DNA from: Kofleriaceae bacterium
Lineage (GTDB): Bacteria; Myxococcota_A; Polyangia; Haliangiales; Haliangiaceae
Direction: 5' to 3'
Assembly: GCA_018058095.1 (NCBI GenBank)
Contig: JAGPCO010000066.1
Location: 1-41,976, forward strand
DNA length: 41,976 nt
The notes beneath the pieces were generated by a model that did no database searches, was not told where the DNA came from, and was given only the letters and a program-made list of their open reading frames with translations. The position numbers and the translations under genes are program-made. Shown here one piece after another: positions 15-41,609 of this stretch; position 1 is the first letter of the stretch, and each line of letters starts with the position of its first letter.

Positions 15-959
15 CTACCGCTCGGGCGTGGCGCCGACCAGGTCGCTGTCGAGGATGGACGGGGCCTCCTCGGCGTCGGACACGCCGGTGATGGCCTGCA
101 GCTCGCGGATGGTGGCCTCGGTCTGCGACATGCCCTCGGCCACGGCGTCGACCTGGGCCGAGATGGAGTCAGGGTCCTGGTGGCTGATGGCCATCTCGGT
201 CAGGGCGTGGATCTTCTGCTCGATGCGATCGAGCTCGACCGCGACGAACTCGGCGTTGCGCGAGGCCTTGTCGAAGTTGTCGACCCGCAGCTCGGCGGTG
301 GCGATGCTGTCGCGCAGGGAGCGGACGATGCGGACCTGGCTCTGGTCGGCGCTGATGTCCTCCACGTCCTTGTCGCCCAGGCCGCGGCTGGCGGCCGCCT
401 CCTTGCCGCGCAGGTCCTCGAGCGCCTTGCGCAGGGCGGCGCCGTCGGCCGCGCGCAGGAACCGCTCGAGCGCCTGCTGGCTGAGCAGCAGCTTGAGGAA
501 CACCCAGAGCAGGCGGTCGAGCGCGGGCGCGCGCAGCTCACCGGCCGCGCCGGAGGCGTCGCGGGTCTCGCCGCGCACGGCGTTGGCGATGCGCTGCATC
601 TCGACGCAGCGTGCGCGCAGGCGCAGGAAGCGGTTGCGCCGCTCCTCGGCCAGGCCGCGTAGCACGTCGAGCACGCGGTCCTTGCTCGACTGCGCCGACT
701 CGGGCTCGCTGCTGCGGCCACCACCGGGCAGGCCGCGCTCCTCGGCCCGGGCCTTGGCGTCGATGGCGGCCTGGAAGCGCGGGATGGTGGTCAGCCCGGC
801 CAGGTACGTCAGCTCGCCGGCGGCGACCAGCGGCAAGGCGATGTCGGCGTGGCCCGACAGCACGGCGGCGGCCGCCGCGCCGCCGAAGATGAGCAGGTTC
901 CAGCGGTACAGGAACGCTTCCTGGACGTAGCGGAGCCAGCCGGCCTTCTTGCGCGCCAT
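15..959 (-). CDS. Two-TM coiled-coil membrane protein, function unknown
   Basis: This is a complete 314-aa protein with an ATG start and a TAG stop. Residues about 18-56 are hydrophobic and probably form two membrane helices (LLIFGGAAAAAVLSG and IALPLVAAGELTYLAGL). The rest is charged, Arg/Glu/Ala-rich and mostly predicted helix, with a likely coiled coil at about 210-290, so a large cytoplasmic helical domain hangs from a short membrane anchor. No family is recognised. It starts 7 bp after the ABC ATPase stop and is the last visible gene of the pspA-ABC operon. It may be an accessory or partner of the transporter or of PspA, which is also a helical coiled-coil protein, but that is inferred only from position and shape. 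Confidence 0.8.
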   Translation of the reverse strand: MARKKAGWLRYVQEAFLYRWNLLIFGGAAAAAVLSGHADIALPLVAAGELTYLAGLTTIPRFQAAIDAKARAEERGLPGGGRSSEPESAQSSKDRVLDVLRGLAEERRNRFLRLRARCVEMQRIANAVRGETRDASGAAGELRAPALDRLLWVFLKLLLSQQALERFLRAADGAALRKALEDLRGKEAAASRGLGDKDVEDISADQSQVRIVRSLRDSIATAELRVDNFDKASRNAEFVAVELDRIEQKIHALTEMAISHQDPDSISAQVDAVAEGMSQTEATIRELQAITGVSDAEEAPSILDSDLVGATPER

Positions 960-966
960 GGTGGCC

Positions 967-2040
967 TCAGTCTCCCGCTCGCTTGGAGGACTCGAGCTTG
1001 TCGATGATGTCGCGGATGCCGAACACCACCTCGAGGAACTTGGGGTCGCGCTGCATCACCGTCGACGGACGATCGGGCGGCGGGACTCGGAGCTCCTTGA
1101 GCACGGTGCCGGGCGAGTTGGAGAAGATGAGGATGTGATCGCCGAGGTACACCGCCTCCTCGATCGAGTGGGTGATGAAGAAGATGGTGGGCGACTGGTC
1201 GCGCCACAGCTCGACCAGGTTGTCCTGCATGCGGGCCCGGGTCGGCGGATCGAGCGCGCCGAACGGCTCGTCCATGAGGATGATGCGTGGCTCGAGGATG
1301 AGGGTGCGGGCGATGGCGACCCGCTGCCGCATGCCGCCCGACAGCTCGTGCGGGTACTTGTCGGCGTCGTTGCGCACCGACAGCCCGACCTTGTGGATCC
1401 AGTGGCGGGCCCGGTCGAGGCGCTCGCTCGTGCCGACCCCCCGGCACTCGAGACCGAACGCCACGTTGTCGAGCACCGACCGGTTGTCGAACGAGGTGTA
1501 GTCCTGGAAGACCATCCCGCGGTCGGGGCCGGGCCCCTCGATCGGGTGGCCGTCGACGAGGATGCGGCCGCTGCTGTGCGGGAACTGCGGGGTCAGGCCG
1601 GCGATGAGCCGGATCACCGTCGACTTGCCGCAGCCCGACGGGCCGAGGATGGACACGAACTCGCCACGCCCCGGGTGGTCGTCGATCTTGAACGACACAT
1701 CCTTGATCGCGGTGAAGTCGCCGTAGCGCTTGGTCACGCGGTCGAACATCACGACCGGCAGCGGCTTGGCCGGGCCCAGCTCTTTCATGCCGACGCCAGC
1801 ACCGGCCTCGACCCGGGGCGCGGCGCTGGCCTTGGCCGGGAGCGGGGCGGCTGGCGCGCTCGGCGCGCTCGGCGCAGGGGCGGCCGGGGCCGCCGGTGCC
1901 GCGGCCTCGCCGGCCAGCTCGGCCTCGAACGCCGCCAGCGCGGCGGCGGCCGCGGCCGGGTCGACCGGGGCGGCCGGGGCCGCCGCGCCGGTCGGGGCGG
2001 GCGCCGGGGCGGCCGGCTTGTCGTCGTCGGGCTTGCTCAC
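967..2040 (-). CDS. ABC transporter ATP-binding protein (nitrate/sulfonate/taurine type)
   Basis: This 357-aa cytoplasmic ATPase energises the neighbouring permease. The motifs are clear: Walker A GPSGCGKST, signature LSGGMRQR, Walker B IILMDEP, then the H-loop in FFITHSIEEA. The Q-loop lies in MVFQDYTSF. The core resembles SsuB/TauB/NrtD ATPases. It is about 100 residues longer than usual because of an Ala/Pro-rich N-terminal extension (about residues 8-85), which is low complexity and probably disordered. The start is GTG. The gene begins 10 bp after the permease stop and ends 7 bp before the two-TM protein. The substrate is unknown; sequence similarity to taurine/nitrate systems does not fix it. 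Confidence 0.93.
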   Translation of the reverse strand: MSKPDDDKPAAPAPAPTGAAAPAAPVDPAAAAAALAAFEAELAGEAAAPAAPAAPAPSAPSAPAAPLPAKASAAPRVEAGAGVGMKELGPAKPLPVVMFDRVTKRYGDFTAIKDVSFKIDDHPGRGEFVSILGPSGCGKSTVIRLIAGLTPQFPHSSGRILVDGHPIEGPGPDRGMVFQDYTSFDNRSVLDNVAFGLECRGVGTSERLDRARHWIHKVGLSVRNDADKYPHELSGGMRQRVAIARTLILEPRIILMDEPFGALDPPTRARMQDNLVELWRDQSPTIFFITHSIEEAVYLGDHILIFSNSPGTVLKELRVPPPDRPSTVMQRDPKFLEVVFGIRDIIDKLESSKRAGD

Positions 2041-2050
2041 GGCGGCGGCC

Positions 2051-3067
2051 TCACAGGTCCTTGCGGTACGGGAAGAACCCGCGCTGCAGGTAGCGGATGG
2101 TCAGGTCGATCAGGAAGGCGATGCCGGCGATGACGATGAGCAGCATGTAGTTCTGCTCGATCAAGCCGCGGTTCTGCCCGGTGTTGAGCATGGCGCCGAT
2201 GCCCTCGTCGGTGTTGATGGCCTCGGCCAGGGTGATGTAGCCCAGGGCCAGCCCGAACTGAAAGCGCAGGCTGGTCACGATGTCGGGCAGGGCCAGCGGC
2301 ACCAGCACCTTGCTGATGACCTGCCAGCGGCTGGCGCCGAGAGTCTCGGCGGTCTCGACGAAGCGCTGCGGCACCGACGAGATGGCCTTGACGGTGTCGG
2401 CGAAGACGAAGCCGACCACCGCCAGGAAGATGAACATCCACTTCTGTCGCTCGCCGATCGAGAACAGGATGACCGTCAGCGGCAGCATGGCGCCCATCGG
2501 CACCGAGCGCAGGAACAGCACGAACGGTCCGACCGCGGCGGCGATGGCCCGGAAGGTGCCACCGATCACGCCCAGGGTGACGCCGACCAGCGCAGCCACG
2601 CCGATCCCCTTGGCGACGCGGGCCATGGTCGCCAGCACGTTGTCGAGGAGGTCGCGATCGATCAACTTGCCGAGCGCGCCGAACACCGCGCCCGGGCTGG
2701 GCAGCTTCGACGGCGAGATCCACGCCTCGGTCGCGCTGCCGCGGGTGATGAGCCACCACCCGAGCAGCAGCACGCCCAGGCTGGCGCCGCCGATCCCCAG
2801 CCGCAGGGGCAGCGGGCCGTCGACGCGCAGGCTGCGCCACCACGCCGGCGGTGGCAGCGGGCTGCCGTCGCTCGAGATCTTGGCGGTCGGCTTCGGCGTG
2901 CTCACCTTGGCCGCCACCTTCGGCGTGCTCGGCTTGCCCGGCGTGGCCGCCCGCGCCGGTGGGGTCACCGTGGCCGGCGCGCTCGCCTTGGGCTGCCCGG
3001 CCTGTGCCTCGGGCGCCGCGTCCTCTCTCTTCGGCCCAGCCGGCGGCTGGTCGCCGCCTGCGCTCAC
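2051..3067 (-). CDS. ABC transporter permease (SsuC/TauC-like)
   Basis: This is a 338-aa inner-membrane permease of the binding-protein-dependent transport family. The N-terminal ~75 residues are Ala/Pro/Lys-rich and probably cytoplasmic and disordered. About six membrane helices follow, starting with LGVLLLGWWLI. The cytoplasmic EAA loop is visible as ETAETLGASRWQVISKVLVP, where the ATPase would dock. The GTG start overlaps the stop of the upstream binding-protein gene (GTGA, 4 bp), so the two are probably translationally coupled. The long low-complexity extension matches the one on the partner ATPase and is unusual for this family. Substrate unknown. Confidence 0.92.
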   Translation of the reverse strand: MSAGGDQPPAGPKREDAAPEAQAGQPKASAPATVTPPARAATPGKPSTPKVAAKVSTPKPTAKISSDGSPLPPPAWWRSLRVDGPLPLRLGIGGASLGVLLLGWWLITRGSATEAWISPSKLPSPGAVFGALGKLIDRDLLDNVLATMARVAKGIGVAALVGVTLGVIGGTFRAIAAAVGPFVLFLRSVPMGAMLPLTVILFSIGERQKWMFIFLAVVGFVFADTVKAISSVPQRFVETAETLGASRWQVISKVLVPLALPDIVTSLRFQFGLALGYITLAEAINTDEGIGAMLNTGQNRGLIEQNYMLLIVIAGIAFLIDLTIRYLQRGFFPYRKDL

Positions 3068-4794
3068 TGTGCCTCCGCCGGCACCACCTTGATCTCGACC
3101 CGCCGGTTCTTGGCGTGGTTGTCGACGTCCTTGGGGTCGGCCGGGCGGTCCCAGCCGTAGCCGGCGGCGGCGATCTGGTTGGGCTGGATCTTGAACTGGT
3201 TGACCAGCGCCTCCTTGACGGCGTTGGCGCGGTTGAGCGACAGCTCCCGCACCAGGCGCTCGTCGGCGACGCCGCGCATCGACCCGTCGGTGTGGCCCTC
3301 GATGACGATGCGGGCCGCGCCGAACTGGCCGGCCATCTTGGCGATCTCCTCGACGGTGTACTTGACCTGCGGGTCGTACGCGACCTCGCCGCCACCGCTC
3401 TTGGCCGGCACCATCTTGAACACCTCGTACGAGTTGGGGAAGAAGCTGATGACCACGCGCCGGGTCAGGACCGCGCTCTCGACGTTGATGGCGTCGGCGG
3501 CGACCGGGGTGAACTTGAAGTCGTACGTGCTCTTCTGGCTGGCGTACTTGTCCTCGCCACCCAGCTTCTTGATGACCGAGAAGTCGGCGATCTGGTCGAA
3601 CGGGACGCGGTCGGACACCACGCCGATGGCCTTGTACAGCAGGAAGGCGGTGTTGTAGGTCCGCTCGAAGTTGGTCGGGTTGTTCTGGTTGAGGAAGAAG
3701 TCGCGGTTCTCGGCGTAGTTGGTCCAGTGGGCGTCGGCCAGCATGCTCTGCCCGGTGCCGGGCGGCAGGTCGTACACGTCATCCATCATCTTGGCCGACT
3801 CGGCCTTCTTGGCGTCGTCGGCCGCAAGCTCCGACGTCGCGTCGAGGATGCCGCGGACCAGGCCCTCGATGATGTCCGGGTTGTCGCGCGCGAAGTCGGC
3901 CCGGGCGAACCACACGTCACCGATCAGCTTGTTGGCGGTGCCGGTGGTGATGAGGATCTTGTTGCCCTGGACCTTCTCCAGGTTGTAGATGTCCGGCGCC
4001 CACGACACCACCGCCGACAGGCTGGGCTCGGCGTTGAACGCGGCGGCGGCGGCGAAGGCGTCCTTGACGAACTTGGTCTTGACCTCCGACGGCTGCACGT
4101 TGGCGTTGAGCAGCATGTTGAGCAGGAAGTAGTGCGACGGCGAGTTCTGCGCCAGCACCACCGTCTTGCCGCGCAGGTCGGCGACCGACTTGATGGTGTC
4201 GCGCACGACGATGCCGTCGCCGCCGTTGGACCAGTCGATCTGCTGGAACACGCGCGGCATGGTGCGCGGGTCACGCCTCAGCCGTTGCACCACCAGCGGC
4301 AGCATGTCGACGGTGGCCCAGCCGAGGTGGATCTTGCCGGCGGCGAAGGTGTCACCCATGTTGACCGGGTCCTCGATCTTGACCAGCTCGACCAGGAAGT
4401 CGCCGCCCTTGGCGTCCTTCCACACCTTCTTCGGCGCCTTGCCGCCGTTGGCGTAGATGATCGGGGCCCAGCCGGCCCAGGTGTTGATGGCGAACTTGAC
4501 GACCCGGGTCTTGCCGAGGGCGGTGTAGTCAGCCGAGCCGGGCACCTCGGGCAGGCGCTGGGCCGGCTCGAACGCGTACTCCTTGACCGTGGTGATGCCC
4601 TCACCGGACGGGTTCTCGGCGGTGCCCTGGCCGCTCTGCTGCTTGATCTGATCGAGGTCGACCTGCTTGGTCGCCGCGGGCTTGTCGCTGCTCTTCTTGG
4701 CGTTGCAGCGATACAGCGACAGGCCGACCAGGCCGGCGGCGATGGCCAAGGCGGCGATGAAGAAGGCGGGTTTCGGCTTACCAGCGTTGGACAT
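3064..4794 (-). CDS. Substrate-binding protein fused to OmpA peptidoglycan-binding domain
   Basis: This 576-aa protein has an N-terminal hydrophobic segment (about 11-29). It ends LYRC rather than a clean lipobox, so it is probably an uncleaved anchor. Residues about 90-400 resemble NMT1/TauA/ThiY-type periplasmic binding proteins: FAINTWAGWAPIIYANGG, a SVADLRGKTVVL strand-turn and NLEKVQGNKILITT. The C-terminal ~130 residues are an OmpA-like domain with the diagnostic GHTDG at about 500, LSLNRANAVKEAL and KNRRVEI at the end. Family knowledge: the OmpA domain binds meso-diaminopimelate in peptidoglycan. A solute-binding domain held at the inner membrane and the cell wall at once is inferred. 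The cognate permease overlaps downstream. An ATG start was chosen just before the charged n-region. Confidence 0.9.
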   Translation of the reverse strand: MSNAGKPKPAFFIAALAIAAGLVGLSLYRCNAKKSSDKPAATKQVDLDQIKQQSGQGTAENPSGEGITTVKEYAFEPAQRLPEVPGSADYTALGKTRVVKFAINTWAGWAPIIYANGGKAPKKVWKDAKGGDFLVELVKIEDPVNMGDTFAAGKIHLGWATVDMLPLVVQRLRRDPRTMPRVFQQIDWSNGGDGIVVRDTIKSVADLRGKTVVLAQNSPSHYFLLNMLLNANVQPSEVKTKFVKDAFAAAAAFNAEPSLSAVVSWAPDIYNLEKVQGNKILITTGTANKLIGDVWFARADFARDNPDIIEGLVRGILDATSELAADDAKKAESAKMMDDVYDLPPGTGQSMLADAHWTNYAENRDFFLNQNNPTNFERTYNTAFLLYKAIGVVSDRVPFDQIADFSVIKKLGGEDKYASQKSTYDFKFTPVAADAINVESAVLTRRVVISFFPNSYEVFKMVPAKSGGGEVAYDPQVKYTVEEIAKMAGQFGAARIVIEGHTDGSMRGVADERLVRELSLNRANAVKEALVNQFKIQPNQIAAAGYGWDRPADPKDVDNHAKNRRVEIKVVPAEAQ

Positions 4795-4860: not shown

Positions 4861-5610
4861 CTACTGCGTGACCTTCTCGGGCTCGGCCGGGCCGAGGTCC
4901 TTCTGGGTGTCGGCGACCGGCGTGGTCTCCGGCGCGCGCATGCCGAGCTCGACCTCGAGCTCGCGCAGCGCGTCCTCGCCCATGGCCTTCTCCATGCGCT
5001 CCTCGGCCTGGATCTCGGCGACGCCGTCCGACGACAGATCGGCGGCGACCCGGGCCTTGCCGCGGTTGCCGTCGATCTTGCGCTGGATCACGTCCTCGAG
5101 CTGACCGAAGTCGGTCGTGAGGTTCATGTTGAAGCTCTCCGACAGCTTCGCGATCTCGGCCTCGGCCTCGCTCATCTTGAGCTCGGCGTCGTACTTGTGG
5201 ATGCGGTCCTTGACCTCGACCAGCTTCTTGTTGGCGTGCTGGATCTTCTTGAGGTTGTTCTGGTAGGCCGCCTCGTGCATGGCCAGCTGCTCCTGGTTCT
5301 GGGCCAGGCCGGTCTTGGCCTTCTGCAGCTCGAGGGCGAACTTGGCGGCGGTCTCGCGCTCGCCGGCCTTGAGGTAGGCCTTGGCCTGGGCCGCCAGCTT
5401 GCCGACGTGCGCCTCGCCCTCCTTGACCTGCCGCCCGACCCGCTCGACCAGGCCGCGGTACTGCTCGAGGCCGACCCGGCCCTCCTTGAGCTGCTCGACC
5501 GCGAGGTCGTACTCGTACTGCATCTGGGCGATGGGGTCGGCCTCCCAGAAGAAGTTCGCCAGCTTGTTGAGCTGACCCTTCATCGAACCCCAGAACTTCT
5601 TGAAGATCAT
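4861..5610 (-). CDS. pspA: PspA/IM30 family phage-shock protein
   Basis: This 249-aa protein is almost entirely helical. It has an amphipathic N-terminus (MIFKKFWGSMKGQLNKLANF) followed by DPIAQMQYEYDLAVEQL, matching the PspA/Vipp1 pattern. A long coiled coil covers about 30-190, and a Glu/Pro-rich tail about 215-249. PspA/IM30 proteins bind and stabilise the cytoplasmic membrane under envelope stress and form ESCRT-III-like polymers. The reading frame stays open upstream to about 5922, but that part lies opposite the 3' end of the FadL-type gene. ATG at 5610 is chosen because GGGAG sits just upstream. It is the first gene of the ABC operon, 66 bp before the binding protein. Confidence 0.9.
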   Translation of the reverse strand: MIFKKFWGSMKGQLNKLANFFWEADPIAQMQYEYDLAVEQLKEGRVGLEQYRGLVERVGRQVKEGEAHVGKLAAQAKAYLKAGERETAAKFALELQKAKTGLAQNQEQLAMHEAAYQNNLKKIQHANKKLVEVKDRIHKYDAELKMSEAEAEIAKLSESFNMNLTTDFGQLEDVIQRKIDGNRGKARVAADLSSDGVAEIQAEERMEKAMGEDALRELEVELGMRAPETTPVADTQKDLGPAEPEKVTQ

Positions 5611-5762: not shown

Positions 5763-7193
5763 CTACAGCGAGGCGCCGAGGCCGAGCATGAAGTACATGG
5801 TCCGCTGCTGGTAGGTGCCGGCCATGTCGGGGTTGCGGCTCGGGGTCATCGGGTCGGCCGTGCGCGGCGCCGTGGTGCGCTCGAGGTAGGTGGCCAGGCC
5901 GAGGGTGGAGCTGGCCAGCCACCGGCCCGACTGCCAGCGCGCCCCGAGCTGGGTGATGATCTTGTCCTGGTCGATCAGCGCTGGCTCGAGGGTGGCGTCG
6001 GGCACCGCGTTGCTGTCGTACAGCACGCCGCCATTGAGCTCGAGGGTGTCGGTCAGGTCGTAGGTGCCGCCCAGCTTGACGCCGAAGGTGTCCTGCCAGT
6101 CGCGCGGGATGTTGACCAGCACGCCGTCGGCGCCGGCGGCCAGGCTGCCGTCGGCGTTGAAGTCACAGCGTGCGCCGGCGAAGTTGCGGTCGACCAGGCA
6201 CTGCCGCTCGAACTTGCTCCAGCGCTGCCACTCGACCACGGCGTGCAACGAGGCCCGCCAGAACGCGTTCCAGGTGCCGCCGACCCGGACCACGTCGGGC
6301 AGGGTCTGCCGCATCTGCACGTCGACCGGCGCCTGGGCCGGGGTGGCGCCGAACTTGTTGGTGAGCGTGCCGTCGACGGTCATCTCGCCCAGGCCGGGCG
6401 AGGCCTGGTACGAGATGCCGACCCGCGAGCACGGGGTCGGCTCGTACATCAGGCCGGCCGACAGCGACAGGCTGGTGTCGCTCAGCTCGAGCAGGCTGCG
6501 GCCCTCGGCCACGTTGCCGCCAGCGTCGACCACGTCGTCGGTGCCGTCGATGCGGCGGGCGCGGATGAGGTTGATGTCGGTCGAGACGACGTTGACGCCG
6601 ACCCCGATCGCGAGCCGGGCCGCCGGGATGCGGTAGCCGGCCGCCAGCGTGTAGTACAGGGAGCGCTGCTCGCCCTCGATCGACGACCAGCGGGCCGGGC
6701 CATCGACCGCGCCCGGGTACATCGTGTTGCCGGCGAAGCGGTCGTCGGCGTCCCAGCTCGACGAGCCGCCGAACGGGGCGTACACGGCGAGGGCGACACC
6801 CAGCCCGGGCACGCCGAGGTCGGAGGCCAGGCCGAGGAACGGGCTGGCCACCAGGTTGCCGAGGGTGGCGGTGCCGGAGTTGACGGCGTTGTCGGGCGTG
6901 CCGGTGCCCGGGTTGTCGATCGCGCCCGGGTCCCTGGTGTAGTCGACCGTGCGGTAGGCGAGCAGGCCCTCGAGGTAGCCGCGGTGGCCGCGCTCGTAGG
7001 CCAGGCCGGCCGGGTTGTAGAAGGCCGCGGTCACGTCGGTGGTGGCGGCGTGGCCGTGTTCGCCGCCGAAGCGGGCGACCGAGAAGCCTCCGGCCTGGGC
7101 CCGGCCGGGCATCAGCGCGAGCAGGGCCGCGGCCACGGCACCGCAGCTCAGAAGAAGGCTGACGACGGGACGCGGTGCTTGACGGCGGTGCAC
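5763..7193 (-). CDS. OmpP1/FadL family outer-membrane protein
   Basis: This 476-aa protein has a long signal peptide ending RAQA before GGFSVARFGGEHG. The mature N-terminus carries the FadL-family hallmark AAFYNPAGLAYERG, the region that forms the plug (hatch) in FadL channels. Alternating beta-strand patterns run to the C-terminus, which ends MLGLGASL. FadL-family barrels import hydrophobic compounds such as long-chain fatty acids across the outer membrane; the substrate here is unknown. The only plausible start is GTG at 7193, placing it almost back to back with the divergent lipoprotein gene. It ends before the terminator-like stem ahead of pspA. Confidence 0.88.
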   Translation of the reverse strand: MHRRQAPRPVVSLLLSCGAVAAALLALMPGRAQAGGFSVARFGGEHGHAATTDVTAAFYNPAGLAYERGHRGYLEGLLAYRTVDYTRDPGAIDNPGTGTPDNAVNSGTATLGNLVASPFLGLASDLGVPGLGVALAVYAPFGGSSSWDADDRFAGNTMYPGAVDGPARWSSIEGEQRSLYYTLAAGYRIPAARLAIGVGVNVVSTDINLIRARRIDGTDDVVDAGGNVAEGRSLLELSDTSLSLSAGLMYEPTPCSRVGISYQASPGLGEMTVDGTLTNKFGATPAQAPVDVQMRQTLPDVVRVGGTWNAFWRASLHAVVEWQRWSKFERQCLVDRNFAGARCDFNADGSLAAGADGVLVNIPRDWQDTFGVKLGGTYDLTDTLELNGGVLYDSNAVPDATLEPALIDQDKIITQLGARWQSGRWLASSTLGLATYLERTTAPRTADPMTPSRNPDMAGTYQQRTMYFMLGLGASL

Positions 7194-7215
7194 GGTGGGG
7201 CGAAAGTCTGCGGCG

Positions 7216-7851
7216 ATGACTCAGTCGTTGTCAATGCGGATGCGGGTGACGACGCTGGTCCCGGGTACGTTGGTGCTGCTGGCCGGATGTGTCGATCCAC
7301 GCGGGCGCTTCGACGACTTCGCCGATCGCACCCCGGCGCCACCTGACGCCGACAGCACGGACGCCGCGGTCGTGACCGACTTGCCGGACGTCGACGGCAC
7401 CTTCCTGCTCGCGGTCAACCCGTCGATCTCGCCGGGCAACGCCGTGCAGTACCTGGTGACCTGGGACCTGACCGAGCCAGGCACCGCCGGGGCCGCGGGT
7501 GATCTCGACGGCAGCTACCAGCCGTTGCGCACGTTCGGCCTGGTCTCGAACTCGCCGGAGCGCACCCCGGTCGGCGCGCCGCTGGTGGTGGGCGACGTCG
7601 CCGTCGACAACACCGCCTCGTTCTCGGCCCGCCTGATGGGCACGCTGCCGGGTATGGCCAACTCGGTGACCGGGCAGACCCGGCCGTACAACATCGTGCT
7701 GGCCGGCGTCATCCGCAGCCCCGACCTGGTGTGCGGCACCGTGACCGGCATGGTCGACGTGGTCGACGTGGCCGGCTCAACCTTCGCCGCCATCCGGGTC
7801 ACCGACACCACGCCGGCCAACCTGCCGGCGCCGACGCTGGCCTGTCCGTAG
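7216..7851 (+). CDS. Predicted lipoprotein, function unknown
   Basis: This protein is about 211 aa. A short signal peptide ends in the lipobox LLAGC followed by VDPRGRFDDFA, so it is likely a lipid-anchored periplasmic or outer-membrane protein. A linker rich in Asp, Ala and Thr follows, then a beta-rich domain with no recognised family. ATG at 7216, ATG at 7234 and ATG at 7240 are all usable. None has a clear Shine-Dalgarno, and the later ones give the most typical signal length. An in-frame GTG at 7195 is less likely because it nearly abuts the divergent gene. The first two starts encode MTQSLSM and MRMRV. Confidence 0.7.
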   Translation: MTQSLSMRMRVTTLVPGTLVLLAGCVDPRGRFDDFADRTPAPPDADSTDAAVVTDLPDVDGTFLLAVNPSISPGNAVQYLVTWDLTEPGTAGAAGDLDGSYQPLRTFGLVSNSPERTPVGAPLVVGDVAVDNTASFSARLMGTLPGMANSVTGQTRPYNIVLAGVIRSPDLVCGTVTGMVDVVDVAGSTFAAIRVTDTTPANLPAPTLACP

Positions 7852-7925
7852 GGCCCGGGTTACGCACCGACGTAGCACCGGCGGCGCGCTGGACGGAACG
7901 CGCCGTGGTGGGCTACCGTGCCGCG

Positions 7926-9332
7926 GTGACCTCCCGATCGATCGTCGCCCTGGCAGCTGGTAGCGCCCTGGGCGTGGTGGGTGCGACCGCCGCACCCGCC
8001 GTGGCCGGCCCCTTCACGACGGTCCCGTCGGCCGCCGATCCGGGAGACCCGATCGACCTGCACCTCACGCTCGACTGGGAGCTGCGCCTGGGCCGCGGCC
8101 AGATCACGCGCGAGCGGGTCGGCATCGCCTCGGTGGCGCCGACGGACCCGATCCCGGAGGTCCGGGACCTGCTGCTCGAGAGCTCGCGCCACACGCTGCG
8201 CGCCGGCGCCGAGCTCGGGGTGTTCCACGACACCTGGCTGTCGCTCGGGCTGCCGATCGTCATCTCCGATCAGCGCGCGCTGTTGTTCGACCAGCAGGAC
8301 ACGCCGTGCTCGTTCGCCGGCGCCGGGGCGACCTGCGTCAACGCCGACAACTCACCGACCGTGCTCGACGGCCTGCTGCCGGCGCGCGGCTACGACGCCG
8401 ACGATCCCGGCACCGGCTTCCCCATGGGCGAGGACATGATCTTCCGCGGCCCGGGCCGCAGCGGGCTGACCCACGTCGCCCTCGGGCTCGGCGTGGCGCC
8501 GATGAACCAGCGCCGCGACGACACCAAGCCGACCTGGAAGCTGGGCGGCGAGCTGCAGCTGGCCATCGGCACGCTGGCCCGGTTCGACCGCGACGCCCCC
8601 GACGCCTCGGGTGGCCTGTCGACCGGGGTGCACGAGCTGCGCGTCTACACCAGCGTCGGCAAGCGGGTCGGCTGGGCCGAGCCGTACGTCCAGATCGACT
8701 GGAAGACGCCGCTGTCGGCCAAGAGCGGCTCGCCGTTCGAGGACCCTGGCTTCGGCGCGCGCCGCTCGCTGACCATGCCCGAGGGCAGCCTGCTGTTCGG
8801 GTTCGAGGCCATCATGGTCGACCGGCCCGACGATCACACCCGGGTCAGCGTCGATCTGTCGACGGAGATCCGCGGCTACTTCGAGGGCCGGGCCCACACG
8901 CCGATGTGGGAGGTGCTGGCCTACGCCGGGGACAGCCGCTACGGCGGCCCGCTCATCCTCGACCGCGATCCGGTCATGCCCGACGTCCAGGCCATCAGCC
9001 ACCCCGGCATCTCGCTGGTCGAGAACTACCTCGAGCTGACCGCCCGCTTCGCGGTCCGCGCCGAGCTCGGCCCGCGCGTCCACCTGGGCGCCGTCGGTGG
9101 CCTGTCGTTCGCCAACGACCACACCATCACCTTCGACGACGCCGGCGTCGACCTGCCGACCTGCGACGGCGGCAGCACCGGGTGTGAGGTCGAGCAGAAC
9201 GACCTGGTCAACCCGGGCACCGCCGAGGTCAACCCCAACCACGTCCCGCTGGTCAACCTGGTCGGCCACCGCTACCGGCTCGAGGACGCTCTCGGCGTCC
9301 AGGTCGGCGTCGAAGCCCGCATCATGTTCTGA
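7926..9332 (+). CDS. Predicted outer-membrane beta-barrel protein
   Basis: This protein is about 468 aa with no recognised family. GTG at 7926 gives a signal peptide (SIVALAAGSALGVVGATAAPAVA, cleaved before GPFTTV) and fits best; in-frame GTGs at 7905 and 7908 are alternatives. The frame stays open further upstream but only inside the previous gene. The mature protein has many alternating amphipathic strands (LTLDWELRLGRG, HTLRAGAELGVF, LYGFEA-like repeats) and ends in GVQVGVEARIMF, with the terminal Phe typical of barrels. It has several loop cysteines (CSFAGAGATC, CDGGSTGC). It is probably a Myxococcota-type surface or channel protein. It converges on the lipoprotein gene at 9349. Confidence 0.75.
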   Translation: MTSRSIVALAAGSALGVVGATAAPAVAGPFTTVPSAADPGDPIDLHLTLDWELRLGRGQITRERVGIASVAPTDPIPEVRDLLLESSRHTLRAGAELGVFHDTWLSLGLPIVISDQRALLFDQQDTPCSFAGAGATCVNADNSPTVLDGLLPARGYDADDPGTGFPMGEDMIFRGPGRSGLTHVALGLGVAPMNQRRDDTKPTWKLGGELQLAIGTLARFDRDAPDASGGLSTGVHELRVYTSVGKRVGWAEPYVQIDWKTPLSAKSGSPFEDPGFGARRSLTMPEGSLLFGFEAIMVDRPDDHTRVSVDLSTEIRGYFEGRAHTPMWEVLAYAGDSRYGGPLILDRDPVMPDVQAISHPGISLVENYLELTARFAVRAELGPRVHLGAVGGLSFANDHTITFDDAGVDLPTCDGGSTGCEVEQNDLVNPGTAEVNPNHVPLVNLVGHRYRLEDALGVQVGVEARIMF

Positions 9333-9348
9333 CCGGCGGCGGGCGTCC

Positions 9349-10305
9349 TCACTCGGGCGCAGCCGGCGGCAGCAGCTCCAGCGTCCGGGTCACCCCGCCG
9401 AAGGTGGCGGTCACGCGCGCGCCGGGCAGCGCGTACAGGTAGTCGACGCAGTTGGCGAGGGCGGTCGGGGTGAGGGTGACGTCGACCGCGCCGCCGAGCG
9501 ACCAGCCCTGGCCGATCACCGGCTGGCCCCCGGCCTCGGCGTGTACACACAGGCGGCCGGCGGTGCGGCCCGGCTGGTCGAGCTCGAGCACCAGGGTGTC
9601 GACCTGGTCGACCACGGTGACCGGCAGGGTGCGCACGCCGAAGGCGTCGGCGCGAAGCCGCAGGTCGAACTGGCCGGCGGCGGCCGGGGCCGAGATCACG
9701 TCCCAGCGCGCCTGGGTGAAGGCCGGATCCGACCAGCCGTCGACGGCGAGCGAGTGATCGATCAGGCGGCGGCCGCTGGCGGACAGCAGGCGCAGCTCGA
9801 GGGAGGTGGTGCCGGCCAGCACGGCGGCGTCGTCGGCGCCGGGCCGGCCTTGCACGCCGGGGACGGCGAGCTCGACGCGGTCGAGCGTGTCCACCTGCAC
9901 CAACCACTGCCCCGCCGATGCGCCCGCGGACAGCTCGAGGGTGGCCTCTCCGTCCGCGACCCCACGTACGGTCGCGCCACGCCACGCCCCCTCGGCCGGG
10001 CCCTCGACCACGGTGGCGGCGGCGCCGGCGCTGCGGATCGACGGCGTCACGCCGGTCCGGGCCCACACCCGCAGCTCGAGCGCACCGCCGACGGCGACCG
10101 CGGCGAGCTGGTTGCCGCTCGCCTGCGCCCCGCTCGGCAGCTCGGTCTCGACGGCGAAGGGGTCGGGCACCACCGGGCCGGGCGGGTCCTCGCAGTACTG
10201 GCCGAGGCACGAGTCGTTCACGCCATCGCCGTTGCTGTCGTAGTCGGTGGCGCAGGCCGAGGTGGCCGCGGTGGCGAGCAGGAGGAGGACCAGGGACGAG
10301 CGCAT
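9349..10305 (-). CDS. Predicted lipoprotein with Ca-binding-like motif
   Basis: This protein is about 318 aa. The signal peptide MRSSLVLLLLATAATSAC ends in a lipobox, and ATG at 10305 is preferred over ATG at 10323. Right after the lipid-attachment Cys comes DYDSNGDGVNDSC, which resembles the DxDxDGxxD calcium-binding loop of thrombospondin type-3 repeats. The remainder is beta-rich and Ala/Val/Gly-rich, possibly Ig-like or carboxypeptidase-regulatory-like folds, with a final LELLPPAAPE. No enzymatic motif is visible. It is a lone minus-strand gene after a hairpin that separates it from the barrel gene upstream. Confidence 0.75.
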   Translation of the reverse strand: MRSSLVLLLLATAATSACATDYDSNGDGVNDSCLGQYCEDPPGPVVPDPFAVETELPSGAQASGNQLAAVAVGGALELRVWARTGVTPSIRSAGAAATVVEGPAEGAWRGATVRGVADGEATLELSAGASAGQWLVQVDTLDRVELAVPGVQGRPGADDAAVLAGTTSLELRLLSASGRRLIDHSLAVDGWSDPAFTQARWDVISAPAAAGQFDLRLRADAFGVRTLPVTVVDQVDTLVLELDQPGRTAGRLCVHAEAGGQPVIGQGWSLGGAVDVTLTPTALANCVDYLYALPGARVTATFGGVTRTLELLPPAAPE

Positions 10306-10385
10306 GGTCCGACCAATCTGCACGGCCTGGACCAGGCAGGACGGTTAGTAAGTTCAGATGGTTACGCGCGCCCGTCTGGCAGGAA

Positions 10386-10413
10386 CCTGACACTGCATCG
10401 ACGGTTTGTCAGG
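10386..10413 (-). terminator. Terminator-like hairpin after the 10417 gene
   Basis: CCTGACA (10386-10392) and TGTCAGG (10407-10413) form a perfect 7-bp stem with a 14-nt loop. It starts 4 bp beyond the minus-strand stop of the small barrel gene. No clear U-run follows. It may end the kinase-regulator-barrel transcript. Confidence 0.45.
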
Positions 10414-10416
10414 TCG

Positions 10417-10968
10417 TCACAGCCGCCAGGCCAGGGTGGCGTCGATGGCCGGGAACGGCGTGCTGCTGACCCGCTCGGGGCCGGCCTCGGGATCCACCGC
10501 GACGCGGAGGTACTGCGCGCCCAGGCCCAGCCGCAGGTCGAGGCGATCGGTCAAGCCGATGGCCCAGCCGACGAACACGCCCGCGGTGATCGCCAGGCCG
10601 CCGGCGTCGTCGTCCTGCGCGCGCACCGCGGCGGCGCGCAGGTACGGCGTGACGTACAGGCCGCGCCCGCTCGGGTCGGCCAGCCAGGTCGCGCGCACGC
10701 CGGCGCCGACGCCGATGGTGTCGTCGCCGAGATCGAACCACGGCAGGAAGTAGGTGCCGAACACGAACGCCTCACCGGCCACCGCCCAGTGCTCGGCCAG
10801 CGGGTGCTCGTAGGCCGGGCCGATCACGGTCAGCCCGCCATCGACCTGCAGCTGCGGGCGAGGCCGAAGGCGCGGCAGATCGGCCGCGGCTGGCGCGGCC
10901 GCGCCGGTCACCAGCGCGGCGGCGAGCGACGCGGAGACCACGATCGGGGGCGTCGGCGAGCGGGGCAT
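10417..10968 (-). CDS. Small predicted outer-membrane beta-barrel protein
   Basis: This is a 183-aa protein with a signal peptide ending APAAADLP. The mature part is a run of amphipathic strands with Gly/aromatic periodicity ([51 protein letters not shown]) and ends in DATLAWRL. The shape fits a small 8-stranded barrel or a DUF3575-like protein, but the family is not firmly recognised. It begins 22 bp after the sigma-54 regulator stop, so it is probably the third gene of the histidine kinase-regulator operon and perhaps linked to envelope sensing. Confidence 0.72.
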
Positions 10969-10990
10969 GGCGTGGGCCCGGCGCGGGCCG

Positions 10991-12484
<1,494 letters not shown>

Positions 12485-12505
12485 GACCTGGCTACCCTAC
12501 CACCA

Positions 12506-14809
12506 TCACCCACCCACCGCCTTCGCCGGCGGCGAGGCGTCGGCGGGCGGTGAGGCATCGGCTGGCGACGCGGCCTCGGCCGGCGGCGAGGTGTCGGCCG
12601 GCGGTGCGGCGGCGGCGCCCGGGGCCGGCGTGGGGTCGGCGCGCGTCGGCAGGTCGTGCCGGCCGGTGGCATCGGCCCGGCCCGGGCGATCGTGGCGCCC
12701 GGTGCTCATCGCGTCGCCGACCGCGGGCAGGAAGACCGAGAAGGTCGAGCCCTGGCCCAGCGTCGACCGCACCTCGATGGTGCCGCCGTGCTGGCTGACG
12801 ATGCGCTGGGAGATGGCCAGGCCCAGGCCGGTGCCGCGCTGCTTGGTCGTGTAGAACGGGATGAACAGCTTCTTGAGCTTGTCGCGCGGGATGCCGATGC
12901 CGGTGTCGCGGAAGCGGACCTCGGCGAACTGGCCGTAGCCCAGGCGCGAGCGCCGGCGCCGGGTGGTGAGGATCTCGAGCGTGCCGCCCTCGGGCATGGC
13001 CTGCAGGGCGTTGAGGCCGAGGTTGAGGAACACCTGCAGCAGCGCCTCGGGGTCACCCGCCGCCGGCGGCAGCAGGTCGTCGATACGCACCCGCACGTCG
13101 ACGTTCTTGCTGTCGTCGGACTGCTGCAGCAGCTGCACGGTCTTGCGCACCACCGCGTTGACGTCGACCCTGCCCTGGTCGTCGCGTTCGGTCCGCTCCG
13201 ACCGGACGTAGTCGAGGAAGCGGGTGACCACGTTGTTGAGGCGGTTGGCCTCCTCGACGATGATCTCCATCAGCTCGACCGTCTCCGGACCGGACTCGAT
13301 CGGCTTGCCGTCGGGGCCGACCAGCAGCTGAGCCGCGCCCTTGATGGCGCCGAGCGGGTTGCGGATCTCGTGGGCCAGGCCGGCCGCCATCTCGCCCAGC
13401 GCGGCCAGGCGGTCGCGCTCCTTGACCCGCTCGTAGGCCTGGCTCGACTCGATGACCCGGGCCGCCGCCGCCGCCAGCTGGCGGAACATGTCGATGTCGT
13501 CGAGGTCGAACGCGCCGGCGGCGCGGTCGTCGCGCACCGCCAGCAGGCCGAGCAGCCACGGCCCCTGCTCGGTCTCGGCCGAGCCCAGCAGCGGGAAGAT
13601 GAGGGCCGCCCGCATGTCGTCGGCCCGGCTCAGCAGGGCGGCCAGCGCGGCCCGCTTGTCGGCGTCGCCGCCGCCGCCGAGGGCGTCGAGCTCGCGCTGG
13701 GTCAGCTCGGCGTCGAAGTAGGTGGCGCGGATGGTGTCGAGGAAGGTGCGATCGGTGCCGGCGTCGAGGCGCTCGGCCGGGGCGTCGCCGAAGAAGCCGG
13801 CGCGGTCGAACCCGGCGCCATCGGGATCGAGCAGGTAGACCGAGCCGTCGGTGACGCGCTGCGACTCCTCGAGCGCGGTGACGATGCGGGTCACCATGTC
13901 GGGCACGTCGACCACCGCCGGCAGGTCGCGCCGGAGCGCCTCGAGCCGGCCGCGCAGCTCGTGCCGCTGTCGCACCAGCCAGCGGTTGATGCCGTTCTCG
14001 AGCCGGCTGCGCACCGGCTCGAACAGGATGAGGATGACGAACGACGCGACCAGCGCGTTGAGCAGGTACAGGCCCTCCTGGCCGCCGCCGATCCAGTACA
14101 GCAGGAAGCCGTACACCGCCCACAGCAGCACGACCAAGAGGCCGAGCACCGCCATCTTGCCGACCAGCTCGTTGACGTCGATCAGCCGGTTGCGGAACAG
14201 CGTCTGCGACAGGAAGTACAGGTAGAGGACGGTGAAGACGTTGCCGATGGTCGGCCAGGCCACCCCGAAGCGCGGCAGCACGTCGGTCAGGGCCAGGGTG
14301 GTGGCGACGAAGCCGCCCAGCGCCAGGTAGCGGACCCGGGCCCGTTCGACCCGCTTGGCGGTCGAGCGGTACTGGATGTACAGGTCGTACACGCAGCGGT
14401 ACAGGCCGCCGAAGACGTAGGCCCCGAACGGGACCTGGAAGTAGATCTTGTCGTGGATGGGGAAGACGATGGCCGAGTAGATCAGCGCGACGTAGGCGAG
14501 GAAGGTCCAGGCCAGGGTCACGCGCGGGCCGCGCCGCTGCCCGCCGATGGACGGCTGCGACAGGAACAGGCGGAAGAAGGCGATGGCGGTGGCCGGCACG
14601 GTGGCCGCGGCCCACAGCGCCAGCCAGCGCACCAGCTCGCTGTCGATGGCGTCGGCGATGAAGGTGGCGGCGTGCCAGGCCGACACGACCATGGTGAACG
14701 CCGCGAACGAGGTGAAGATGCGGTCGCGCCGGTTGCGCAGCAGCACCGAGGCGCCGATGGCCAGGGTGAGCAGCGCGGCCAGCAGCGCGGAGACCGCCTG
14801 GACGTTCAC
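12506..14809 (-). CDS. 7TM-GAF sensor histidine kinase
   Basis: This is a 767-aa membrane kinase. About seven to nine hydrophobic helices cover residues 5-275, resembling 7TM sensor regions. A GAF-like domain lies at about 290-450. The dimerisation/phospho-acceptor helix follows with H480 in [11 protein letters not shown]. The ATPase domain has an N-box ([14 protein letters not shown]), G1 (DTGIGIP) and G2 (GTGLGLAIS). The C-terminal ~60 residues are a low-complexity Ala/Pro/Asp tail with a hexapeptide repeat. The TM-GAF-HK layout paired with a sigma-54 regulator resembles PrsK/PrsR, though no PEP-CTERM genes are in view. It is the first gene of an operon with the regulator at 10991. Confidence 0.93.
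12527..12606 (-). repeat. 18-bp tandem repeat in the kinase tail
   Basis: Four to five imperfect 18-bp units encode SPPADA-like hexapeptides (variants [28 protein letters not shown]) at the very C-terminus of the kinase. The tract is in frame and probably disordered. It is likely to vary in copy number between strains. Confidence 0.75.
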
Positions 14810-14887
14810 GGGAGCCAGTCTACTGGAAAGGACCGGGGCGCCGGCGCCGGAGGTGGGGCAGATGGCGCTTGCCGGGGCCGGCCGCGC

Positions 14888-14902
14888 CGTGACAGCGTCA
14901 CG
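14888..14902. promoter_or_regulatory. Inverted repeat CGTGAC-AGC-GTCACG before the peptidase
   Basis: A perfect 6-bp inverted repeat with a 3-bp centre ends 2 bp before the M28 peptidase ATG, in the 95-bp divergent spacer shared with the kinase gene. It may be an operator or an RNA hairpin that masks the ribosome-binding site. No promoter elements are clear in this spacer. Confidence 0.3.
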
Positions 14903-14904
14903 CC

Positions 14905-15885
14905 ATGTCGCCGCGGCCGTCCTGGACCCTCGCCTTCGCGCTGTCGACCTCGCTCGTCCCCCTGCTGGCCAGCTGCGACGACCCGTCGGCGTCGATCGAC
15001 GCCGGGCCGGCCGGCGGCGCCGACGGCGCGGGCGGCGCGGCGGTCGATGGCGCCGTCGACGCCGACGCCCTGGCCTGCACCGGGGCCGACGCCTGCGCCT
15101 GGCTCGACGACTACCTGCGCGAGCTGGTGTCGGCGCTGGCCGGGCAGGTCGAGATCGCCCCGGGCCTCACGGTCACCGGGCGCGAGACCCTCGCCGAGCG
15201 CAGCGCGGCCCGGACCTACCTGCGCGACCAGCTCGCGCGCTGGGGCGCGGTCACCGGCCACACCTACGCCACCGGGGAGAACGTGGTCCTGACCCTGCCG
15301 GCGACCACCGCGGCCGGCGCCGCGGCCGCGCCGCTGTTGCTGGGCGCGCACTTCGACAGCGTCGCCGCCGGCCCGGGCGCGGCCGACAACGCGACCGGGA
15401 CCGCGCTGGTCGTCGCCGCCGGCCGCTACCTGGCCGGGCTGCCGCGCCGCGATCGGCCGGTCATCATCGCGGTGTTCGACGAGGAGGAGCTCGGCCTCAT
15501 CGGCAGCCGGGCCTACGCGCGCGATCTGGTCGCGGCCGGCACCGCGCTGCACAGCGCGCACTGCTTCGACATGCTCAGCTACGACGGCGACGACGACGGC
15601 GGCGTCGAGCTGTGGTCGCCGACGACCGAGCTGGCCGCGCTGTACCAGCGGCACGGCCAGGCCCGCGGCGTGCCCATCGCCGCCTTCACGTTCACCCGGT
15701 CGGATCACCAGGCCTTCCTCGAGCAGGGCCTGGCCGCGGTCGGTGTCGGCGAGCAGTTCGTCGGCGGCGATCACACCAGCCACTACCACCGGGCGACCGA
15801 CACCTTCGACAAGGTCGACTTCGACTACCTCGGCGCCGCCGCCCGCCTGGCCCTGTCGGTCAGCACCGACGTCGTCGTCGACTGA
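14905..15885 (+). CDS. M28-family zinc metallopeptidase lipoprotein
   Basis: This 326-aa protein has a lipoprotein signal (LLASC, lipid-attachment Cys at 24) and an Asp/Gly/Ala-rich linker to about residue 55. The peptidase domain has the co-catalytic zinc ligands expected for family M28: H149 (GAHFDS), D161 (ADNATG), E194/E195 ([11 protein letters not shown]), D222 (FDMLSY) and H295 (YHRATDT). It should be an exported aminopeptidase anchored to a membrane; peptide specificity cannot be read. It is transcribed divergently from the sensor kinase. Confidence 0.92.
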
Positions 15886-28609: not shown

Positions 28610-31600
28610 ATGAGTCAGCACGACCACGACCACGACCACGGCGTCACCGCCGAGCCCGGCCTGGTGCCGACGCAGGGCACCGCCCCTGGCCACGGCTACT
28701 GGCGCAGCCTCGAGGAGCTCGCCGCCGGCGGCGTCCCGGCCAAGCCCGACGAGTTCCCGGCCACCGCGGCCGACAGTCAGTCGGGCGACCTGCTGTCGCG
28801 CCGGAACTTCTTCAACCTGATGGGTGCCAGCCTGGCACTGGCCGGCGTGGCCGGCCCCGGCTGCAAGCGGTACGAGAAGGACGAGATCGTCCCGCTCGCG
28901 CGGCGGCCCGAGGACCAGATCCCCGGCGTGACCCAGGAGTACGCCGGCGTGCTCGAGATCTCCGGAGCCGCTCATCCGGTGGTGGTGACCTCGTTCGAGG
29001 GGCGCCCGATCAAGGTCGACGGCAACCCCGAGCACCCGTTCACCGGGGGTGCGGTCCGCGGCGCGACCACCCGGCACGGCGGCTCGAGCGCTTTCGTCCA
29101 GGCCTCGGTGCTGTCGGTGTACGACCCCGATCGCTCGACCAGCGTGCTGCAGGCCGGCAAGGCCTCGACCTTCGTCGCCTTCCGCAAGTGGCTGACCGAC
29201 TACCGCGCCCAGCTGCAGTCGGGCGCGGCCAAGGTCCGCATCCTGTCCGAGGCCACCAGCTCGCCGACCATCGAGGCGCTTCGCCGCAAGCTGGTCGAGC
29301 AGCTGCCGGGCGCGGTGTGGGTCGAGTACGAGGCCCTGTCGTGGGACAACGAGCGCGCCGGGACCCGGATGGCGTTCGGCCAGCCGGTGCGCCCGATCGC
29401 CAAGCTCGATCAGGCCCACACCATCGTCGCCCTCGACTGCGACCTGTTCATCGAGCACCCCGCCGCCATCCCGTACAGCCGGGACTTCGCCAAGGGCCGT
29501 CGCGGCGACAAGCCGAGCAACCGCCTGTGGGCCATCGAGAGCACGTTCTCGTCGACCGGGGCCATGGCCGACCACCGGCTGCCGCTGCGGTCCGAGCTCA
29601 TCCTCCCGGTGTGCCAGGCCCTCGACGCCGCCCTCGCCGGCGGCGTCGCGCCCACCTCCGAGGCGCTGGCCGAGGGCAAGGTCGCCCGCTTCCTGCAGGT
29701 GCTGGCCGAGGAGCTGCGCGAGCAGAACGGCAAGGCCGTGCTGGTCGCCGGCCGTCGCCAGCCGGCTCAGGTCCACGCCCTGGTCGCCAAGATCAACGGC
29801 GCCATCGGCGCGGTCGGCAACACGCTGACCTACGTGAACGACCCCGAGCCGGAGCGCCAGCTCAGCCACCTCGACGCGATCAGCAAGCTGACGCGTGAGA
29901 TGACCGACAAGCAGGTCGAGACCCTGATCATCCTCGGTGGCAACCCGGTGTACGACGCGCCGGCCGACCTCGGCTTCGCCGCGGCGCTGGCCGGTGTCGC
30001 CAGCACCGTGCACCTGTCGGAGCACGCCAACGAGACCTCGATGGCGTGCGCGTGGCACGTGCCGCGCGCCCACAACCTCGAGACCTGGACCGACGCCCGC
30101 ACCTGGGATGGCACGTACACCCTCGGCCAGCCGGTCATCCTGCCGCTGTACGGCGGCGTCTCGCCGGCCGAGCTGCTGTCGCTGGTGCTGGGCGACGAAA
30201 AGACCGGCGACGTGCTGGCGGCCGACACCTTCAAGGCGCTCGGCAAGGGCACCTGGCGCAAGGCCGTGCACGACGGCTTCGTCGCCGACACCGGGTACAA
30301 CACGGTCGGCGTCGCGCTGCAGGCGCTGGCGCCGGTCACCCTGGCCGAGAGCCAGCGCGCCGGCACCGCCGCCAAGAACGGCGCGCTCGAGGTGACCTTC
30401 GTCCACTCGACCTCGACCTGGGATGGCCGCTTCGCCAACAACCCATGGTTGCAGGAGACCCCCGACTTCCTGACCAAGGTCACCTGGGACAACTACGCGA
30501 TGGTCAGCCCGGCCACCGCCGAGGCGCTCGGGCTGAGCAACGACACCCTGATCAACGTGAAGGTCGGCGACCGCAACGTCGAGGTGGCCTGCTACACCAT
30601 GCCGGGCCAGGCCCGCGGCTCGATCGCCCTGGTGCTCGGCGGCGGCCGCACGCGCGCCGGCAAGGTCGGCGGCAACGGCAAGGCCAAGGTCGGGTTCGAC
30701 ACCAACCGCGTCCGCACCGTGGCCGGCTTCGACATGGCCAGCGGATGCTCGGCGACCCGGACCGGCAAGGGCTACGCCCTGGCCAGCACCCAGGAGCACT
30801 GGGACCTGCGGCAGGGCATCGACACCACGATCGGGGAGCGCGGCATCGCCAAGCGGCTGCCCAGCCTGGTGGTCGAGACCACCCCGGCCAAGGCGGCCGA
30901 CCCGACCTGGACCGCCAAGAACGAGACCGAGTACTACCACGACGGCAACCGCGGCCTGTCGCTGTTCGAGGAGCACCCGTTCGCCCAGGACGAGCGCTAC
31001 GCCAAGACCGACAAGCCGGAGCCGAAGTCGAACCACGCGTGGGCGATGGCCATCGACCTGTCGACCTGCACCGGCTGCAACGCCTGTGCGGTCGCCTGCC
31101 AGGCCGAGAACAACGTCCCGGTCGTCGGCAAGGACCAGGTCCAGCGCAACCGCGAGATGAGCTGGATCCGGATCGACCGCTACTTCAAGGGGCCGGTCGA
31201 TGATCCGGAGATCGCGCACCAGCCGATCGCCTGCCACCACTGCGAGAACGCGCCGTGCGAGCAGGTGTGCCCGGTCGGCGCGACCACCCACTCGAACGAG
31301 GGCCTCAACGACATGGCGTACAACCGCTGTGTCGGCACCCGCTACTGCCTCAACAACTGCCCGTACCGGGTCCGCCGCTTCAACTTCCTCGACTACCACA
31401 AGGAGCTGGCCGCGGCCCGCAACAAGGTGCGCGAGCTGGTGTTCAACCCCGAGGTCACCGTCCGCCACCGCGGCGTGATGGAGAAGTGCACCTACTGCGT
31501 GCAGCGCATCCAGAACGGCAAGATCCGGGCGAAGGTCGACGGGCGGACGCTGGCCGATGGTGACATCGTCACCGCCTGTCAGGCGGCGTGCCCGACCGAG

Positions 31601-31795
31601 TCGATCGTCTTCGGCGACCTGGCCGACAAGGAGAGCCGGGTCAGCAAGCTGCACGGCGATCGCCGGGCCTACGGTCTGCTCGACGCCGAGCTGTACACCA
31701 AGCCGCGCACCCTGTTCCTGGCCCGCGTCCGCAACCCCAACCCGAAGCTGGCCCCGGCGACCGCCGCGGCCGCCGGTCACCAGGGTGGTCACTAG
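28610..31795 (+). CDS. actB: Alternative complex III iron-sulfur subunit (molybdopterin-oxidoreductase-like)
   Basis: This is a 1061-aa protein. A His/Asp-rich start (HDHDHDHG) precedes a twin-arginine-type signal with R64-R65 ([17 protein letters not shown]) and a following Cys (GPGC). The middle ~750 residues resemble the molybdopterin-oxidoreductase fold, which in ActB is known to lack the cofactor. The C-terminal part carries ferredoxin-like cysteine sets from C820 on: [41 protein letters not shown] and CQAACP. This fits a set of 3Fe-4S and 4Fe-4S clusters. ActB is the peripheral periplasmic subunit. It is encoded between actA and actC, and only 2 bp separate it from actC. Confidence 0.95.
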
Positions 31796-31797
31796 TC

Positions 31798-33204
<1,407 letters not shown>

Positions 33205-33220
33205 GAGTCGCGAGGACGCC

Positions 33221-34606: not shown

Positions 34607-34615
34607 GGAGCGGCC

Positions 34616-35905: not shown

Positions 35906-35970
35906 AGTGATCTGCACCGACGTCCGTGGTGACGGTGGAGCCCTGGTCCACCGGAAGCAAAGGTGAACTC

Positions 35971-36408
35971 ATGAGTGGTGGCGCCCCCCGCAATCCCGAC
36001 CGCACCAACATCGTCGGCATCGTCGTCGTCGGCATCTGCGGCGCGGCCATGGTCTACCTGTCGATCGCGTTCCTGCAGGCGTTCTACGCCGACGACACCG
36101 CGCAGGTCGACACGATGGCTGACTACGGCGGCCAGGATAACTTCTACCGCACGGTTCGGGCCGAGCAGGTCGGCGTGATCGAGACCGCGCGTAAGGGCGC
36201 GGTCACCACCGGCGGCAAGCAGACCTACACCATGAGCATCGACCGGGCGATCGCCAAGGTGGCCGAGGACGCCAAGCGCGCGCCCGACCACCTGGTCCCG
36301 AGCCAGTGCCGGTCCAACAAGCCCAGCATCGAGCCGGCGTTTGGTCGGCCCAAGCCCCTGGCCGAGCCGCCCGCATGCACCCCCGAGGCTGGAGGCGATG
36401 CGCCCTGA
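35971..36408 (+). CDS. Small one-TM protein of the ACIII operon (possible ActG)
   Basis: This is a 145-aa protein. One TM helix is clear (NIVGIVVVGICGAAMVYLSIAF), with the remaining ~110 residues hydrophilic and containing C- and Pro-rich ends (PPACTPEAGG). ATG 35971 has AAAGGTG upstream; an in-frame start at 35926 is less likely. Some ACIII complexes carry a small single-TM subunit, ActG, of similar placement between ActF and the oxidase genes. That identity is inferred from position and topology only. It overlaps the SCO gene by 11 bp, which suggests translational coupling. Confidence 0.75.
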   Translation: MSGGAPRNPDRTNIVGIVVVGICGAAMVYLSIAFLQAFYADDTAQVDTMADYGGQDNFYRTVRAEQVGVIETARKGAVTTGGKQTYTMSIDRAIAKVAEDAKRAPDHLVPSQCRSNKPSIEPAFGRPKPLAEPPACTPEAGGDAP

Positions 36409-38664: not shown

Positions 38665-38673
38665 AGGCCTGCC

Positions 38674-41609
<2,936 letters not shown>

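Follow-up and report, generated by a model that had tools for sequence, protein, structure and literature searches.

A substrate-binding protein joined to an OmpA domain

Why would the substrate-binding protein (SBP) of an ATP-binding cassette (ABC) importer be anchored in the membrane at one end and carry a peptidoglycan-binding-type domain at the other? The question is raised by a gene at positions 3064–4794 (minus strand) of a 41,976-nucleotide contig from a Kofleriaceae bacterium (JAGPCO010000066.1, assembly GCA_018058095.1), the whole of which is here called the window. A sequence-only reading of the window had described the gene product as a periplasmic binding protein fused to an OmpA domain, and had suggested that it is kept at a set distance in the periplasm, or that it senses the state of the wall rather than importing a nutrient. 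We consider it probable (roughly 0.6) that the fusion protein is the binding subunit, tethered to both wall and membrane, of a functional importer of the TauABC/NMT1 class, which would serve envelope maintenance by PspA and an AAA+ ATPase.

The open reading frame, which has an ATG start and encodes 576 amino acids, coincides exactly with the one first proposed, and Pfam profiles recognized both of its claimed domains: NMT1 at residues 135–326 (E = 4.3e-7; 30.5 bits against a gathering cutoff of 20.5) and OmpA at residues 477–563 (E = 9.5e-13; 48.8 bits against 27.2). An AlphaFold2 model built with 11 homologues as input (mean predicted local distance difference test score, pLDDT, of 74) contained one N-terminal helix (residues 9–31), a two-lobed domain (about 98–420), and a C-terminal OmpA-type domain (443–572). 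Specifically, we place the membrane anchor at residues 9–31 (window 4702–4770), the bilobed binding domain at about residues 95–425 (3520–4512), and the OmpA peptidoglycan-binding-type domain at residues 443–576 (3067–3468), all on the minus strand. A lipoprotein anchor was ruled out, as no lipobox was present among 81 orthologues, and the idea of an N-terminal membrane anchor without a lipobox held up in both the model and the alignment. Sequence and model together support a protein composed of an uncleaved transmembrane anchor, a two-lobed SBP domain of the TauA/NMT1 class, and a C-terminal OmpA domain, which would lie in the periplasm and span the distance from the inner membrane to the wall.

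The closest solved fold for the C-terminus of the AlphaFold2 model was that of AbOmpA with a peptidoglycan peptide (3td5; VIA-align Z of 15.0). The motifs GHTDG and NRRVEI were intact, as previously noted. D503 and R522 aligned with AbOmpA chain positions 55 and 70, which are 15 residues apart, as are the diaminopimelate-binding residues of AbOmpA, Asp271 and Arg286 (PMC5974059). D503, R522, and N563–R565 were each present in at least 80 of the 81 sequences. Judged from these alignments, the OmpA domain keeps both the Asp and the Arg that bind diaminopimelate, and it probably binds peptidoglycan in vivo.

Across the 81 sequences, the spacer between the SBP and OmpA domains was near-invariant at 41–43 residues, whereas the linker between the membrane and the SBP domain varied from 53 to 75 residues. 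The fixed relation of the SBP domain is, therefore, to the wall-binding domain and not to the membrane, such that the earlier suggestion of a set distance stands for the former and fails for the latter.

Binding pocket and candidate ligands

A bilobed binding fold extended over the whole SBP domain of the model and places it in the NMT1/SsuA/TauA class. The best solved match was TauA (VIA-align Z of 26.7 over 290 residues, with a root mean square deviation of 3.6 Å), and SsuA scored 24.7. Matches to more specific families were under their curated cutoffs, both for the TauA (taurine) equivalog TIGR01729 (48.8 bits against 304.25) and for TIGR03427, a putative urea SBP family that was the top NCBIfam match of this part of the protein (9.5e-21; 74.3 bits against 333.9).

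In TauA, the pocket includes Trp176, Glu106 and Asp205 bind the amine, and the sulfonate is held by main-chain NH groups at Gly61, Gly79, and Thr132 (PMC6906117). We mapped this published pocket by phmmer sequence alignment to TauA, at about 20% identity; ten positions were checked, and two of them, Asp84 and Ser109, mismatched the chain letters and were left unused. The counterparts of Glu106, Trp176, and Asp205 were kept as D193 (81/81), W265 (81/81), and D293 (80/81), while those of Gly61, Gly79, and Thr132 were, in this same low-identity alignment, the near-invariant P143, D163, and P219, so that the main-chain NH cage of TauA was not matched. Proline has no NH to offer. On account of these replaced cage residues, taurine or a sulfonate was rejected as the probable ligand. 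The acidic triad D163/D193/D293 also occurs in a protein named 'putative urea ABC transporter substrate-binding protein' in RefSeq. Because the sulfonate-holding positions are Pro or Asp and the triad matches that of the putative urea SBP, a small cation appears to be a more likely ligand than a sulfonate, with guanidinium among the candidates.

Conservation of the fusion gene and its neighbourhood

Full-length matches exceeding 50% identity came from 14 of the 35 further related genomes searched, and one more genome had a partial match at the end of a contig. A scan of named genomes yielded 375 relatives, and the 80 best were retained as loci; at every one of these the match reached the OmpA domain, in one case (L135) via a second reading frame. 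Given both of these results, the fusion architecture is not a product of chance. The record titles of the best 80 loci named Myxococcota/Deltaproteobacteria, Acidobacteria, Gemmatimonadetes, Planctomycetes, Verrucomicrobia, and Lysobacterales, mostly as metagenome-assembled genomes, and the binding domain had 57–80% identity across at least six bacterial groups.

In the window, the fusion gene is second in a tight, same-strand operon with the order pspA, fusion gene, permease, ATPase, and gene 5. Among loci with enough flanking sequence, 63 of 74 had pspA near the fusion gene, 64 of 68 the permease, 59 of 63 the ATPase, 55 of 62 gene 5, and 34 of 43 a gene for a double AAA+ ATPase. In several Planctomycetota loci (among L129–L147, which comprise Planctomycetota and Verrucomicrobiota), the AAA+ gene was positioned between pspA and the fusion gene, and in L138 and L146 a more distant pspA followed gene 5. 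Four Lysobacterales genomes had no ABC genes adjacent to the fusion gene; each of them encoded one orthologous permease elsewhere (66–71% identity), and three carried pspA beside the fusion gene. The pspA/fusion/ABC block is old, and the permease is retained even where it is unlinked.

The first gene of the block, pspA (4861–5610, minus strand), encodes a 249-amino-acid member of the PspA/IM30 family (Pfam PspA_IM30, 2.8e-11) with 56–80% identity across orthologous operons. Just upstream of it is a gene for a FadL/OMPP1/TodX-like outer-membrane protein (5763–7193, minus strand). The TauC-like permease gene (2051–3067, minus strand; Pfam BPD_transp_1, 1.4e-21; NCBIfam TauC, 2.1e-33, below the curated cutoff) overlaps the stop of the fusion gene by 4 bases at its start. 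In the TauB-like ATPase (967–2040, minus strand; Pfam ABC_tran, 2e-28; NCBIfam TauB, 1.3e-62, also below the curated cutoff), the Walker A, the LSGGMRQR signature, the Walker B, and the H-loop are all legible. Gene 5 (15–959, minus strand) is the last, with the contig ending 14 bases past it, and is predicted to have two N-terminal hydrophobic helices and further long helices in an all-helical model (pLDDT 86). It had no significant Pfam family match, and its model had no Foldseek match at E up to 1e-3 when an ESCRT-III/PspA-type fold was sought; the hhalign probability against the PspA profile was 0.1%, from shallow profiles.

The double AAA+ gene has not been lost from the source genome. It was present at 79% identity on a separate contig (C18, positions 35483–37279), adjoining gene 7, a small, conserved gene at positions 34619–35167 of the same contig (locus L156). 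A direct continuation of the window contig into C18 is unsupported, as the AAA+ gene on C18 comes after other genes and a search for matching contig ends found none. The AAA+ protein had a single Pfam AAA domain, in its C-terminal half, where the Walker A motif GPVGTGKS/T was also seen, and its N-terminal half is, according to PMC11237479, a second AAA copy that is inactive. In another genome (L035), gene 7 was also located close to a distantly related SBP-OmpA/permease/ATPase set, which is independent evidence for an association of these genes.

Elsewhere in the window, a sigma-54-type response regulator is encoded beside a histidine kinase (10991–14809, minus strand), and positions 28610–40386 (plus strand) encode a 1061-amino-acid protein containing 4Fe-4S domains and, at a later position, the cytochrome oxidase protein COX2 with a cytochrome c domain and then COX1.

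Relation to known systems

Operons comprising PspA/Snf7, a double AAA+ ATPase, ABC components, and PBPB/OmpA (e.g., OGG56892.1) were described from genome comparison by Ravi et al. (2024, mSystems; PMC11237479), who already proposed wall binding by the OmpA domain. The window has the combination that characterizes that system, with PspA, ABC ATPase, permease, and SBP-OmpA together in one operon. Since the same gene set and the wall-binding idea appear in that study, the SBP-OmpA fusion and its wall-binding reading are not new; names for comparable proteins in RefSeq likewise include an SBP/OmpA family. Our additions are the near-fixed SBP-OmpA spacing, the pocket analysis, and the retention of the permease when unlinked. 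The AAA+ gene is within the operon in the system of Ravi et al., whereas it is on another contig in the source genome. They also list a Snf7 homologue with a transmembrane segment, with which gene 5 was neither identified nor excluded.

The fusion operon resembles the TauABC and SsuABC importers in its SBP fold, its classes of permease and ATPase, and its pocket acids and Trp, and departs from them in having Pro/Asp at the sulfonate cage, an added transmembrane anchor and OmpA domain, and a PspA neighbourhood. In the relative compared from the putative urea SBPs of TIGR03427, the D(W/Y)SNG(G/N)DGI motif of the fusion protein recurs together with its three acids, but there is no OmpA domain. 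Another point of comparison comes from Vibrio plasmids, which encode a 'Phosphate ABC transporter substrate-binding/OmpA family protein' and a second SBP-OmpA protein, alongside ABC ATPase and vWA genes. Identity to the fusion protein was about 24% for the nearer of the two, TelA was present, and no PspA was annotated beside it; the set resembles a TelA-based counterpart of the PspA system. Two such plasmid loci (L149, at about 7000–15800, and L150) contained two SBP-OmpA genes, vWA, TelA, an ABC ATPase, and a 'putative urea' SBP with a permease. Literature searches on SBP-OmpA proteins with TelA, or on peptidoglycan-anchored SBPs, returned nothing relevant.

Finally, MotB has an N-terminal transmembrane segment, a linker, and a C-terminal OmpA-type domain. 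MotB and PomB were among the OmpA-domain relatives of the fusion protein and have this layout in common with it, including the peptidoglycan-binding-type domain, while the fusion protein is distinguished by an SBP domain of about 330 residues in between, and no MotA-like partner was seen in its operon. A role in anti-phage defence was set aside, as PADLOC matched only the MotB/OmpA, ABC, and AAA parts.

Import, sensing, and alternative explanations

In the mechanism that we propose, the N-terminal helix would fix the SBP domain in the inner membrane and the C-terminal OmpA domain would bind peptidoglycan, so that the topology would resemble that of MotB with a binding protein mid-chain. The SBP domain, with its fixed separation from the wall-binding domain and a membrane tether of about 64 residues, would catch a small, probably cationic solute and then hand it to the permease. 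Through the wall tether, the importer would stay at sites of contact with the wall, at which PspA and the AAA+ ATPase may maintain the membrane. Several observations weigh against this importer. Its components are separable, given that four Lysobacterales loci have no permease next to the fusion gene and that the double AAA+ gene is on another contig in the source genome. The pocket mapping depends on an alignment of about 20% identity in which two of ten TauA positions were unusable, and the distant homologues at L036 and L037 have neither D193 nor some of the Trp residues, with the query ABC genes undetected in the sequence stretches around both. Moreover, a literature search with few terms returned no report of a phenotype in binding, transport, or stress for a member of this system.

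Much of the evidence for import is shared by its main rival, in which the SBP domain would act as a sensor or stator that reads a ligand or the membrane–wall distance, gates the ABC ATPase, and signals to PspA and the AAA+ ATPase without net transport. The MotB-like topology conferred by the transmembrane and OmpA segments and the near-invariant SBP-OmpA spacing would suit such a role, as would the adjacency of pspA in Lysobacterales loci whose permease is elsewhere, and there are cyanobacterial CmpC/NrtC structures with SBP-like domains on ABC ATPases, termed 'regulatory' in an entry title. Set against this, most loci retain both the permease and the ATPase, and the pocket residues do not vary, as expected for ligand binding and handover, although a ligand sensor would keep its pocket too; we regard sensing without transport as somewhat unlikely. 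The earlier suggestion that the protein senses wall state rather than imports is, accordingly, not favoured in view of the nearby permease and ATPase genes and the unlinked permease kept in the four Lysobacterales genomes. Sensing together with import is possible. A mechanical form of gating, in which the distance between the membrane and wall to which the SBP domain is tied sets its access to the permease, and ABC activity reports their separation and controls repair by PspA and the AAA+ ATPase, strikes us as unlikely.

An ordinary nutrient importer, with an SBP merely retained at the wall and pspA nearby only since both are envelope genes, would agree with the standard appearance of the ABC components and with the unlinking of genes in some lineages. 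We consider it quite improbable: pspA recurs near the fusion gene in 63 of 74 loci over at least six groups, the double AAA+ gene is likewise nearby in 34 of 43, and no catabolic gene was among the recurring neighbour families that were identified, several small clusters being without identification. The source assembly consists of 227 contigs, which bears on whether the join is an assembly error; that possibility, or that of a degenerate OmpA domain that no longer binds the wall, is hardly credible when the same architecture is found at 80 of 80 loci and D503, R522, and NRR are kept.

Implications for PspA and the cell envelope

PspA is a bacterial relative of ESCRT-III. The operon ties it to a probable wall-anchored ABC importer, and would bear on how the state of the envelope is linked to PspA beyond the classical systems. 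A ligand class narrowed to a likely small cation, as opposed to a sulfonate, and the near-fixed SBP-OmpA spacing would provide testable handles on a system for which our literature search found only descriptions from genome comparison.
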